Below the pieces are notes generated by a model, which saw only the letters and a list, made by a program, of their open reading frames with translations, ran no database searches and was not told the DNA's origin. Positions 10,137 through 14,850 of a DNA stretch of 64,000 bases are shown here, piece by piece. Location: the NCBI GenBank assembly GCA_012839565.1, contig DUMZ01000007.1, positions 174,939-238,938 of the forward strand, in the 5' to 3' direction. The number at the start of each line of letters is the position of its first letter. Within the stretch, counting starts at the first letter, position 1. The position numbers and the translations under genes were made by a program. This DNA comes from Anaerolineaceae bacterium. GTDB lineage: Bacteria; Chloroflexota; Anaerolineae; Anaerolineales; Anaerolineaceae.

Positions 10137-10910
10137 ATGATCAACTTTTTAGCCAAGATTGAAGAAAAAATCCAGGCCTTGCTTGAAGACGGGCTTGACC
10201 GTCTTTTGCATCCCGGCGCGTCATACTCCCTTAGCGCGGAACTGCTAAATCTGATTAAAGAAAATATCCGCCAGGAAAAACCCAAAAGCAGTGGCGAAAG
10301 CCATCAAAAATTCGCGCCTGACCACATCAAACTTTACGTGCCCTTTGAACGCTATGACGCCTGGCAAAACTTGCGTCCCGTCCTGAACGAAGTTGCCGCG
10401 GAAATTGAACAAAGCTTCACCACCGAAGGTTACAAGTTTGAACGCAAACCGCGTATCCAAATCATCGCGTCCGAAGACCTCCCCCTGGACCAAATCGACA
10501 TCACCACCAGCTACTACCACGAAATTGAACAGACCGGAAAAACTTCCCTAATTCAACTGGATAATACCCCCAGAAATATCCCGTTGCCAAGTGGAGCTTG
10601 TTTTATCGTCAATGGCAAAGACAATATCCCACTGCAAAAGCCGATTGTTCACATCGGACGTCACAGCAACAATGATATTGTCATTCAAGACCCCATGGTC
10701 TCGCGTGAGCATTTGCAACTTCGCGCGCAACGGGGCTATTACCTGCTTTTTGATCTCAGCAGTACCGGTGGCACAACCATCAACGGGCAAAGCGTGCACA
10801 CCGCCACCTTGAAACCTGGTGACGTGGTACGCATCGGACAAACCGTGCTCATCTACAACCAGGACTTGCCCGAAACAACAACCAAAACGATTGTGAGTGT
10901 ACCTGAATAA
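10137..10910 (+). CDS. FhaA-like protein (DUF3662-type N-terminal domain plus FHA domain)
   Basis: 257 aa; N-term FLAKIEEKIQALLEDGLDRL..., C-term FHA: IHIGRHSNNDIVIQDPMVSREHLQLRAQRGYYLLFDLSSTGGTTINGQSV. Confidence 0.85.
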   Translation: MINFLAKIEEKIQALLEDGLDRLLHPGASYSLSAELLNLIKENIRQEKPKSSGESHQKFAPDHIKLYVPFERYDAWQNLRPVLNEVAAEIEQSFTTEGYKFERKPRIQIIASEDLPLDQIDITTSYYHEIEQTGKTSLIQLDNTPRNIPLPSGACFIVNGKDNIPLQKPIVHIGRHSNNDIVIQDPMVSREHLQLRAQRGYYLLFDLSSTGGTTINGQSVHTATLKPGDVVRIGQTVLIYNQDLPETTTKTIVSVPE

Positions 10911-11356
10911 TGACCCCACTCGTCGGACTTATCTTACGTATTTTATCCATAGTCATGTTGTATGTCTTTTTAGGCATCACCATTTGGCTTTTATGGCGCG
11001 CGGTATCCGCCAAAGAAGCCACCGCCGGTCGGCTTGCCATCCCCACCATTTCACTGGTCAGCGACGAAGATGGCGTTCGTGAAGAACTAACCTTCAACAG
11101 TCAGGAAGTCACCATCGGGCGCAGTCCCGAATGTGATTTTACACTCAATAACCACACCGTTTCAGCCCGGCATGGGCGTCTTAATTTCCATCTCAATCAA
11201 TGGTGGTATGAAGACCTGAAATCAACCAACGGCTCGTTCTTGCAAGGCATGCGCATTGAAGAACCGATTGTCATCAAAGATGGTGACGAAATCGCTTTTG
11301 GTGACGTTTACGTGAGTGTGTTTATTAAAGCAGTCGATAATATCAAGCAGAGGTAA
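10910..11356 (+). CDS. FhaB-like membrane-anchored FHA domain protein
   Basis: 148 aa; one N-terminal TM segment then VTIGRSPECDFTLNNHTVSARHGRLNFHLNQWWYEDLKSTNGSFLQG. Start overlaps fhaA-like stop. Confidence 0.85.
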   Translation: MTPLVGLILRILSIVMLYVFLGITIWLLWRAVSAKEATAGRLAIPTISLVSDEDGVREELTFNSQEVTIGRSPECDFTLNNHTVSARHGRLNFHLNQWWYEDLKSTNGSFLQGMRIEEPIVIKDGDEIAFGDVYVSVFIKAVDNIKQR

Positions 11357-12243
11357 TGATGACAGAAGAAATTTTATTAGGCGTAATAGGTGGCTCAGGG
11401 CTTTACAGCTTTGAAGAACTCGAAAATCAGGAAAGTATTGAAATCGACACTCCTTTTGGCAAACCCTCATCGCCGATTGTCATCGGCAAGATAAAGGGTC
11501 AGAAAATCGCCTTTCTCGCGCGCCATAGTATCGGGCATATTTATTCGCCCACGGATGTCAACTACCGCGCCAACATCTACGCTTTCAAATCCCTGGGCAT
11601 TCGCGCTATCGTCAGCGTCAGCGCGGTTGGCTCTTTGCGCGAAGATTACGCGCCCGGACACATCATCGTCCCCGACCAGATTTACGACAACACCAAAGAC
11701 CGCAAACGCAGCTTTTTTGGCGAGGGTATGGTCGTGCATATCAGTTCGGCAGACCCCTTCTGCCCTGCTTTAAGTCAACTGCTGCTTAAAGCCTTGCGCG
11801 AACAGGACGCCATTGTGCACGAAGGGGGCACGCTGATTACCATTGAAGGCCCGCGCTTTAGCACACGTGGCGAATCCGAAACTTTCCGCAAATGGGGCAT
11901 GTCCCTGGTGGGCATGACTGCCGCGCCGGAAGCCTTTCTGGCACGCGAAGCCGAGATGTGCTACGCCACGATGGCGCACGTTACCGATTTTGACTGCTGG
12001 CATGTCAGCGAAGAAGCTGTCACTGTGGAAATGGTGGTAAACACGCTGCAGAAAAACACCCGAACCGCGCAAAAAAGCATCGTGCGACTAGTGGAGTTGC
12101 TCGCCGAAGCGCAAAGCGCAGGCAAAGTCAGCCACTGCGAATGTGAACACGCGCTCAAAGACGCCATCATGACCAACCCTAACGCCATTTGCGAAGATAA
12201 AAAGCAAACGCTTGAACTGCTGACGGGAAAATACTTTAAGTAG
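11356..12243 (+). CDS. mtnP: S-methyl-5'-thioadenosine phosphorylase
   Basis: 295 aa; GVIGGSGLYSFEELE, FLARHSIGHIYSPTDVNYRANIYA, TIEGPRFSTRGESETFRKWGMSLVGMTAAPEAFLAREAEMCYATMAHVTDFDCW. Confidence 0.92.
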   Translation: MMTEEILLGVIGGSGLYSFEELENQESIEIDTPFGKPSSPIVIGKIKGQKIAFLARHSIGHIYSPTDVNYRANIYAFKSLGIRAIVSVSAVGSLREDYAPGHIIVPDQIYDNTKDRKRSFFGEGMVVHISSADPFCPALSQLLLKALREQDAIVHEGGTLITIEGPRFSTRGESETFRKWGMSLVGMTAAPEAFLAREAEMCYATMAHVTDFDCWHVSEEAVTVEMVVNTLQKNTRTAQKSIVRLVELLAEAQSAGKVSHCECEHALKDAIMTNPNAICEDKKQTLELLTGKYFK

Positions 12244-12249
12244 ACTTCT

Positions 12250-14850
12250 ATGAACAACGACCTTAAAGCACCGCGACAACCCAGGTTGATTCTCTTTGGG
12301 ATTTTGTTTGTGTTTTTTTACACAGCGGCGCTTTCGCTGGCGAGTGCGATTCGAACACACGCGCCAGGTTTTCAGGTTGACTGGTATTACTTTATCCCCT
12401 TTGCAGCCTGGCTCATAGGCGCGCTGGGCTTAGATTACGCGGTTAAGCGCTTTTTGCCCAACCGCGACCCCTGGATATTCCCCGTTGTTATGCTCTTGTG
12501 TGGCTGGGGACTGTTGACCATTTGGCGTCTTTCCCCTACCCTGGGACAAAGGCAGATTATCTGGTTTCTCTTGGCATGTCTCCTTTTTTACTTCGGCATT
12601 CGCCAAAAAGAACTGGTCAGCAAACTAAAAGGCCTAAAATACTTATGGCTTCTGTTTGGATTGCTCCTTATCGGGCTCACTTTTTGGATTGGTGTCAACC
12701 CCAGTGGCAGTGGCCCTACCAGATGGCTTAGTGCCTTTGGTATTTTCTTTCAACCATCAGAACCATTAAAACTCTTCCTGCTGGTTTACATCGCGGCTTA
12801 TTTCGCCGATCAGGTAAAACCCAACACATCACTCATCGCCAGCATCTTACCCACGCTTATCATCATCGCTGTCATTGGCGTGATGCTCATCAGCCAGCGT
12901 GATCTGGGCACCGCTGCCTTATTCCTGGGCTTTTACGTGCTCATGCTTACGGTTAGCAGCAACAGTCGCAAATACCTGTGGATTGTGCCTGTGTTGGCCA
13001 TCATAGCTATTGTTGTTGGTTATTTTACGCTTGATATCGTCAAAACCCGCGTGGATATTTGGCTCAATCCCTGGCTGAATACATCGGGCAGTTCCTACCA
13101 AATCGCGCAGGCGCAAATTGCCGTGGCGTCCGGTGGGCTATATGGAACCGGACCGGGCTTAGGCAGTCCGGGTTTTGTACCGGTGGCGGTATCGGACTTT
13201 ATTTTCACAGCCATCGCCGAAGAAACCGGGCTTATCGGCACATCAGCCTTGCTCATTCTCTTCGCGATTGTCATTATCCGGGGCATTAATATCGCGCTGG
13301 CTTCCAAAACAACCTACGGCCGTTATCTCGCCTTTGGCATCTCCATGTTCCTGACCTTGCAATGTCTTTGGATTATTTGCGGTAATTTGGGCTTGCTCCC
13401 GCTCACTGGCGTAACCTTGCCATTTATGTCCTATGGAGGCTCATCGCTGGTCACCAGCATCTTAGCTATCTTGTTATTACTAAAAATCAGTGCCGATTCA
13501 AGTACCATTCCCTTGCCTGATAAAGCGCGCAAACCCTATCATCGCATCGCCGCGATAGTGCTTGGCATCTTTGTGCTTATCATCGGCTGGAACAGCTACC
13601 TGGCGATATTCAACCAGGACGCCATCGTTAACAAAGCGGAAAACATGCGCTGGGCGATTGATGACCGCTATTCGCCATTAGGCAATATCAGCGACCAAAG
13701 TGGTAATCCCATCGTGCGCACGATCGGCACGCCAGGCGACTATGAACGTGAATTGCTCGTGCCTGGACTAAGTATAACCATCGGCTACACAAACCCCGTC
13801 TTGGGGAAATCAGGGCTTGAACGTAGCCTGTACCCCTATTTGCGTGGCACAGAGACGCGCGACGAAACCTTAAGCAGTCAATACCAGTTGCTTTATAATC
13901 AGCCCCCGCCAGGCAGTGATGTTTCTGTGAACATTATTCTCGACCTGCAAGCCAAAGCGGATAAATTGCTTGACGATAAGCATGGCGCCATTATCTTGAT
14001 GAACGCCATAAACGGCGAAATTTACGCCATGGTCTCCCACCCTTACTTTGACTATACAACTATCGCTGAAGACTGGGAAAGCTGGCGCCAACGCGAAGAC
14101 GCGCCCCTTCTCAACCGCGTTACCCAAGGTGTCTACCCGCTTGGCACGCTGGCAAACGGTTTCGCCTTAAGCAGCTACTGGGTACAGGAAGGCACCAACA
14201 CGCTCAGTATTCCACTCCACAATGACGCAATCGACTCATTATGTGGAAAAATGCTTACTGTCACCGATCAGGTGAATCCCATCCAGCACGGTTGCCTGGA
14301 AGCAACACGCGATTTAATCAACGCTAATGACCCACTGGCTCTAACCGAACAACTCGACAAGTTTGGTTTCTACAGCATACCCAGTTTCTCCCTGGAACTT
14401 GCTCAGCCCACAATCCGACCGGGTAAAAACTACTTTAATAATATCCAAACGCTTATACCTGCCACCCAGCTCAGCCCCCTGCAAATGGCACTCATCGCCG
14501 CCAGCATCACCAACGATGGCAACAAAATCACCCCGCGTCTGGTCAACGCCTATCAAACTGAAAATGGCAGCTGGAAAAGCTACACAGAACCATCGCAGGC
14601 TATGCGCGTTTTGCCCCAGACCGTTGCCAAAACCACCCGCGATTATTTCAGCCAGCATAACAAAGCCTACTGGTATATGATGGGTCACAGCGCGATGGAA
14701 GAAGAACAGACGATTGTTTGGTACGTTGGGGGAACAAACGACGCCTGGACCGGCACGCCAATGGTGATCGTCATCGCGCTTGAAGACAGTCAGCCCGACC
14801 TGGCTTATCGCATAGCTGACCAGCTCTTCGTGCCACAATCTGAAGATTAG
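12250..14850 (+). CDS. SEDS (RodA/FtsW-like) peptidoglycan polymerase fused to a C-terminal PBP transpeptidase-like domain lacking catalytic motifs
   Basis: 866 aa; N-terminal polytopic SEDS with SGGLYGTGPGLGSPGFVPVAVSDFIFTAIAEETGLIG and PLTGVTLPFMSYGGSSL; C-terminal part resembles PbpA (GAIILMNAINGEIYAMVSHPYFD...LLNRVTQGVYPLGT). Confidence 0.88.
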   Translation: MNNDLKAPRQPRLILFGILFVFFYTAALSLASAIRTHAPGFQVDWYYFIPFAAWLIGALGLDYAVKRFLPNRDPWIFPVVMLLCGWGLLTIWRLSPTLGQRQIIWFLLACLLFYFGIRQKELVSKLKGLKYLWLLFGLLLIGLTFWIGVNPSGSGPTRWLSAFGIFFQPSEPLKLFLLVYIAAYFADQVKPNTSLIASILPTLIIIAVIGVMLISQRDLGTAALFLGFYVLMLTVSSNSRKYLWIVPVLAIIAIVVGYFTLDIVKTRVDIWLNPWLNTSGSSYQIAQAQIAVASGGLYGTGPGLGSPGFVPVAVSDFIFTAIAEETGLIGTSALLILFAIVIIRGINIALASKTTYGRYLAFGISMFLTLQCLWIICGNLGLLPLTGVTLPFMSYGGSSLVTSILAILLLLKISADSSTIPLPDKARKPYHRIAAIVLGIFVLIIGWNSYLAIFNQDAIVNKAENMRWAIDDRYSPLGNISDQSGNPIVRTIGTPGDYERELLVPGLSITIGYTNPVLGKSGLERSLYPYLRGTETRDETLSSQYQLLYNQPPPGSDVSVNIILDLQAKADKLLDDKHGAIILMNAINGEIYAMVSHPYFDYTTIAEDWESWRQREDAPLLNRVTQGVYPLGTLANGFALSSYWVQEGTNTLSIPLHNDAIDSLCGKMLTVTDQVNPIQHGCLEATRDLINANDPLALTEQLDKFGFYSIPSFSLELAQPTIRPGKNYFNNIQTLIPATQLSPLQMALIAASITNDGNKITPRLVNAYQTENGSWKSYTEPSQAMRVLPQTVAKTTRDYFSQHNKAYWYMMGHSAMEEEQTIVWYVGGTNDAWTGTPMVIVIALEDSQPDLAYRIADQLFVPQSED

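Follow-up and report, generated by a model that had tools for sequence, protein, structure and literature searches.

A SEDS protein fused to a transpeptidase-dead class B PBP in Anaerolineae, and the stepwise reduction of that PBP among its relatives

The window, by which we mean the whole 64,000-nucleotide stretch of Anaerolineaceae DNA analysed here, carries a gene for a SEDS protein fused to a class B PBP-like domain, preceded by two genes for FHA-domain proteins and one for a phosphorylase. The features of the locus are:

10137..10910, + strand: FhaA-like protein (FhaA_N plus FHA), from gene order and an FHA match of 65.7 bits; FhaA_N scores 21.6 bits, under the cut-off of 25
10910..11356, + strand: FhaB-like protein (membrane helix plus FHA), FHA 68 bits; the best NCBIfam match, FhaB_Rv0019c, is below its cut-off
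11356..12243, + strand: S-methyl-5'-thioadenosine phosphorylase (MTAP), TIGR01694 at 308 bits, over the cut-off
12250..14850, + strand: SEDS::pseudo-class-B-PBP fusion ORF, 866 aa, ATG start (ORF list, Pfam, relatives, AF2)
12274..13494, + strand: SEDS (RodA/FtsW) glycosyltransferase domain, residues about 9-415 (PF01098, AF2 helices, conserved cavity residues)
13195..13197, + strand: D316, which aligns with the catalytic Asp of E. coli FtsW, D297 (FtsW/RodA alignment)
13519..13611, + strand: PBP transmembrane helix, residues 424-454 (AF2 secondary structure)
13612..13929, + strand: linker and pedestal (PBP_dimer_2-like), residues 455-560 (PF21922 in members; lowest dN/dS)
13930..14829, + strand: pseudo-transpeptidase domain, residues 561-860 (AF2, Foldseek)
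14146..14157, + strand: SxxK position, reading T-L-A-N (633-636; aligned to E. coli PBP2 S330-K333)
14146..14469, + strand: helical active-site part, residues 633-740, relaxed and missing from short relatives (identity, dN/dS, short forms)
14290..14298, + strand: SxN position, reading G-C-L (681-683; aligned to E. coli PBP2 S387-D389)
14677..14688, + strand: KTGT position, reading M-M-G-H (810-813; aligned to E. coli PBP2 K544-T547)

The ORF couples a RodA/FtsW-type SEDS domain to a PbpA-like C-terminal domain, as a preliminary description made from the letters alone had proposed, and the reading frame, Pfam and Foldseek agree on this architecture. PF01098 matches residues 98-417 of the fusion with 239 bits (curated cut-off 26.4), and PF00905 reaches 39 bits against a cut-off of 22.1, covering profile positions 119-218 alone; PF21922 is found in 23 of 25 members and scores 17 bits in the window protein, under its 27-bit cut-off. 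The AlphaFold2 model of the full-length fusion (pLDDT 88.9, pTM 0.85) has about twelve SEDS helices followed, after ~8 residues, by the PBP membrane helix 424-454. Modelled over residues 431-866 (pLDDT 88.4), the dead domain keeps the PBP/transpeptidase fold, and its best structural matches in Foldseek are the transpeptidase (TP) domains of Eggerthella lenta and Atopobium and M. tuberculosis PbpA, with TM-scores of 0.71-0.76. A pattern search for a ribosome-binding site returned none at 12250, and the pattern does not rise above chance within the window.

The SEDS active site is intact, and lipid II polymerisation is predicted from its conserved residues, which we mapped from the E. coli FtsW mutational map of residues whose change kills the protein (PMC8765783). 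The Asp within FVPVAVSDFIF, the region that the preliminary description had called conserved, is D316; it aligns with FtsW D297, and FtsW Q147, R246, G371, G380 and G381 likewise correspond to Q168, R267, G387, G396 and G397. Across the 71 SEDS rows of the lineage whose PBP motifs are lost (the lost set), W159, Q168, E171, G220, R267, D316, P384, G387, G396 and G397 are identical in every one, Y395 in 70 and L219 in 69. Of these positions, E171 and P384 correspond to FtsW E150 and P368, which tolerate alanine (PMC8765783). FtsW R243, P196 and a few other positions differ across the whole SEDS group, active relatives included.

The PBP part, aligned to E. coli PBP2/MrdA as the reference for motif positions, has no catalytic motif left. 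E. coli PBP2 S330-T-V-K333 falls on T633-L634-A635-N636, exactly the T-L-A-N to which the SxxK position had earlier been assigned. No SxN had been recognised; that motif is indeed absent, but its position can be located, with S387-A-D389 aligning on G681-C682-L683. For KTGT the earlier reading was G-H-S-A (14683-14694), which is right that the motif is dead but is two residues out of register, since K544-S-G-T aligns on M810-M811-G812-H813; K-[ST]-G is absent in either register. We also rejected the idea that intact motifs are hidden in another register: the head holds no conserved Ser or Lys, and a search for K[ST]G[TS] over all sequences of the main lost clade found none.

SEDS-linked PBPs were gathered from genomes of the same genus, family, order, class and phylum and from named genomes. 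Matches to the motif patterns in fusions L010, L011, L020 and L072 were re-examined at the aligned motif positions and relabelled, and the label of L240, which is cut by its contig end, was revised at those positions as well. SxxK, SxN and KTG are absent from all 125 scored PBP domains of the lost lineage, fused or split, while the 58 intact relatives keep the S and K of SxxK in every case and KTG in 57; the loss is clade-wide. The same fusion with the same motif loss occurs in 26 of 26 same-genus genomes with a contig spanning the region and in Leptolinea sp. HRD-7 (L099), whose record is titled complete genome. Anaerolineaceae bacterium UBA8523 bears the same fusion.

Fusion and motif loss are separable, since there are dead PBPs that are split off as well as fused ones that are active. 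A dead PBP encoded next to the SEDS gene is found in many Anaerolineae (L087-L092, L103, L117, L198, L209-L211, L216, L217, L219, L222-L226, L246 and others). Conversely, SEDS-PBP fusions with their motifs kept occur in Coriobacteriia (L105-L107, L109, L115), in a Lachnospiraceae genome (L129, 4716-7517) and in a Chloroflexota genome of another class (L253, 1198-4005; SxxK and KTG examined). Other Chloroflexota classes usually have a separate, intact PBP. The dead split forms and the active fused forms rule out the notion that fusion causes the loss. The earlier picture of an active polymerase with a tethered dead PBP is partly borne out: the computations support dead motifs, with a loss that proves clade-wide, an intact SEDS active site, the strongest constraint on the SEDS-contacting pedestal and linker, and separate intact class B PBPs in the genome. 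What has to change is the weight put on tethering, since in many relatives the dead PBP has a gene of its own beside the SEDS gene, and independent fusions elsewhere are catalytically intact.

Trees place the motif loss at essentially one event, and fusion has been gained and lost several times. In the SEDS tree (119 rows), the 70 lost Anaerolineae rows that were sampled fall into a single clade (SH-aLRT 97), whose sister is the pair L220, with an intact PBP, and L218, with SxxK deleted; the tree has three changes of catalytic state and nine between fused and split. The PBP tree, for which the active-site columns were left out, has two changes of catalytic state (split 90/91) and ten between fused and split. 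Loss before fusion is the simpler reading, since split dead forms occur throughout the clade, although both trees have many weak branches. The PBP of L218 (878-2005) lacks SxxK and SxN and keeps KTGTA, and it looks like a recent second loss because its close sister L220 is intact. A fused dead form also occurs in a more distant Chloroflexota genome with 8% contamination (L252, 1486-4131), which the SEDS and PBP trees place differently. One record titled 'Chloroflexus sp.' (L101) has a SEDS that groups within the Anaerolineales fusions, and its label is probably wrong.

The earlier reading overlooked a stepwise domain reduction, which in some lineages goes down to the membrane helix. In 20 short forms the helical active-site part is excised. 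Further along are SEDS genes that keep the PBP membrane helix alone, with ORFs that end soon after it:

L104, 4971-6440 (one genome)
L215, 2950-4569 (one genome)
L094, 3890-5290, and L098, 3875-5167 (two genomes of one family)

No pseudo-PBP was found downstream or elsewhere in the genomes of these loci, and a six-frame look at L104 revealed no displaced PBP coding. All four keep the SEDS catalytic Asp, with L098 deviating at a few of 13 checked cavity positions, and the helix-only rows sit inside the lost clade at three or more points; L243 and L244 resemble them. In L096 and L097 even the helix is missing and the SEDS gene stands without any PBP remnant, so activation by the PBP cannot be universal.

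Where it is retained, the dead domain is under purifying selection. Rough pairwise dN/dS estimates (Nei-Gojobori, same-genus pairs with unsaturated dS) lie far below 1 in each sub-region: the linker and pedestal show about 0.02-0.09 and SEDS 0.03-0.11, the helical active-site part gives 0.11-0.24 and the C-terminal core 0.03-0.24. Between lineages, pedestal identity is 0.39 among the dead domains versus 0.40 for active Chloroflexota PBPs; the corresponding pairs are 0.20 versus 0.40 for the helical part and 0.26 versus 0.44 for the C-terminal core. Forty-six positions reach 80% conservation or more in the lost set, including positions in the pedestal and C-terminal core, and every one lies outside 633-742, a stretch where neither Ser, Lys, Cys nor His is conserved to that degree. 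Catalysis is thus lost while constraint on the partner interface is retained, as would be expected of a pseudoenzyme activator. A pair of cysteines, C665 (14242-14244) and C682 (14293-14295), occurs in 93 of 105 long dead domains, in 17 of 58 intact PBPs and in none of the 20 short forms. It is probably a structural disulfide, which fits its absence from the short forms and its presence in some active relatives.

The host genome, a 1.97-Mb draft that is 95.6% complete, encodes three SEDS proteins, and separate intact class B PBPs are there as well. One SEDS protein belongs to an mreB-mreC-mreD-mrdA-rodA cluster with an intact MrdA, a second to the dcw cluster, where FtsI and FtsW are intact, and the fusion makes the third. 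The genome also carries an orphan class B PBP with a MecA_N domain, intact motifs and a lipoprotein-like N terminus (contig C19; L270, 7126-9312), and a long transpeptidase ORF on contig C17 is probably a class A PBP. Close homologues of the MecA_N PBP are found in 36 of 38 lost-clade genomes versus 10 of 25 motif-intact genomes, a difference whose Fisher p of 2e-6 overstates the case because the rows are related and the losses few. What links the two is a correlation, drawn on a tree where independent losses are very few, and most of the nearest intact relatives possess the MecA_N PBP too, a pattern that fits a permissive, pre-existing redundancy. This PBP would be the first candidate for crosslinking in trans.

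Taken together, we think it likely that the fusion is a third SEDS polymerase whose PBP has been reduced to a non-catalytic activating subunit, with crosslinking supplied in trans. The fusion would descend from the RodA-PbpA pair of the FHA locus, its class B PBP having lost transpeptidase activity. Its membrane helix and pedestal would hold the SEDS domain in an active state, the SEDS domain would polymerise lipid II via D316, and other intact PBPs, most likely the MecA_N-type class B PBP, would crosslink the strands. Constraint on the helix and pedestal, together with an active site first released and then removed, is the pattern expected from selection for activation alone. The core beyond the pedestal is also under selection and may have an extra role, such as binding glycan, the FHA proteins or another PBP. 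More broadly, and more tentatively, the Anaerolineae may display a series from intact PBP to dead PBP, to one without the active-site lobe, to the helix alone, in which the conserved role of the PBP is activation of polymerisation and crosslinking has passed to a MecA_N-type PBP; we regard this as a real prospect, somewhat short of probable.

Other explanations have to be weighed against an activating subunit. Most of the genomes are draft assemblies, so that a sequencing, assembly or frameshift error, or a misalignment masking intact motifs, deserves mention, but the recurrence of one loss in every covered same-genus genome and across the family, Leptolinea sp. HRD-7 included, and the complete lack of K[ST]G[TS] in the main lost clade leave this explanation with next to no probability. 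The fused PBP might instead be vestigial, decaying neutrally and with nothing left to do beyond being harmless to the SEDS enzyme. The low identity and deletions of the helical part, and the loss of the whole periplasmic part in some lineages, speak for such decay; we nevertheless consider it unlikely in light of dN/dS values well below 1 in all sub-regions, a frame that is open in all same-genus genomes, the 46 well-conserved positions and a confidently predicted PBP fold (AF2).

A pseudo-transpeptidase that has acquired a new activity, whether enzymatic or in sugar or peptide binding, through new cleft residues such as C665 and C682, would account for the enrichment of the cysteine pair in long forms over intact PBPs and for the persistent selection on the C-terminal core. 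It sits poorly with a stretch at 633-742 in which no candidate catalytic side chain is well conserved, and with a pair that short forms lack and some active relatives share; we judge it improbable. A comparably small chance attaches to a SEDS product other than crosslinked wall, either uncrosslinked glycan strands or another lipid-linked polymer, for which a transpeptidase would be unneeded: a third SEDS beside complete Rod and divisome pairs, and the repeated tolerance of PBP loss, agree with this, yet the cavity residues required for lipid II polymerisation are unchanged and an ordinary PbpA persists in close relatives.

The debate over whether class B PBPs are retained for crosslinking or for switching SEDS on draws mainly on point mutants from a handful of model bacteria. 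Across the lineage described here, evolution appears to have pulled the two roles apart, providing graded natural variants that are directly assayable. If the activating-subunit reading is true, beta-lactams cannot reach this SEDS machine via its own partner PBP. Already known are natural SEDS-PBP fusions, mentioned in PMC10449877 with citation of a Rhodococcus genome, coriobacterial TP domains in the PDB, and dead class B PBPs as laboratory mutants. Our literature search, which most subscription papers lay outside, turned up no account of a natural pseudo-transpeptidase SEDS partner spanning a clade, none of such a partner shrinking to a helix, and no work on Anaerolineae SEDS proteins.

In its surroundings the fusion most resembles the RodA-PbpA/FHA locus of Actinomycetota, which in Nocardia (L153, Pfam-confirmed) runs fhaA-fhaB-pstP-rodA-pbpA-pknA-pknB. 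The two share the upstream FHA genes (10137-11356 here), the order of SEDS then PBP and a PbpA fold match. They differ in that here the PBP is fused and dead, MTAP stands in place of pstP, and pknA and pknB do not adjoin, a different gene on the opposite strand lying downstream. An MTAP gene lies upstream of most Anaerolineae homologues at the place of pstP, and the window has the common Anaerolineae order fhaA-fhaB-MTAP-SEDS(::PBP). The window locus accordingly appears to derive from the actinobacterial one, with MTAP replacing pstP and the kinases absent. A PknB-like Ser/Thr kinase ORF lies divergent from the dcw cluster of the same genome (L269, 15609-16733) and might supply phospho-signals to the FHA proteins.

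The fusions of Coriobacteriia, some with solved TP domains (4mnr, 4jbf and others), likewise join SEDS and a PbpA-type PBP in one ORF, but they, like those of L129 and L253, keep the catalytic motifs that the window fusion lacks. In B. subtilis, dead PBP2B supports division if the MecA_N protein PBP3 is active (PMC5656894), so that a dead class B PBP still serves structurally while a MecA_N PBP crosslinks; PBP2B S309A is, however, an engineered point mutant of a division PBP, whereas the Anaerolineae loss is natural, old, clade-wide and extends to all motifs. Work on E. coli RodA-PBP2 bears on the proposed mechanism: the class B PBP pedestal activates SEDS via ECL4 (PMC8078798), and RodA fused to the PBP2 membrane helix alone is stimulated (PMC10449877). 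Those fusions are laboratory constructs and native PBP2 is active, whereas in Anaerolineae the PBP is dead.
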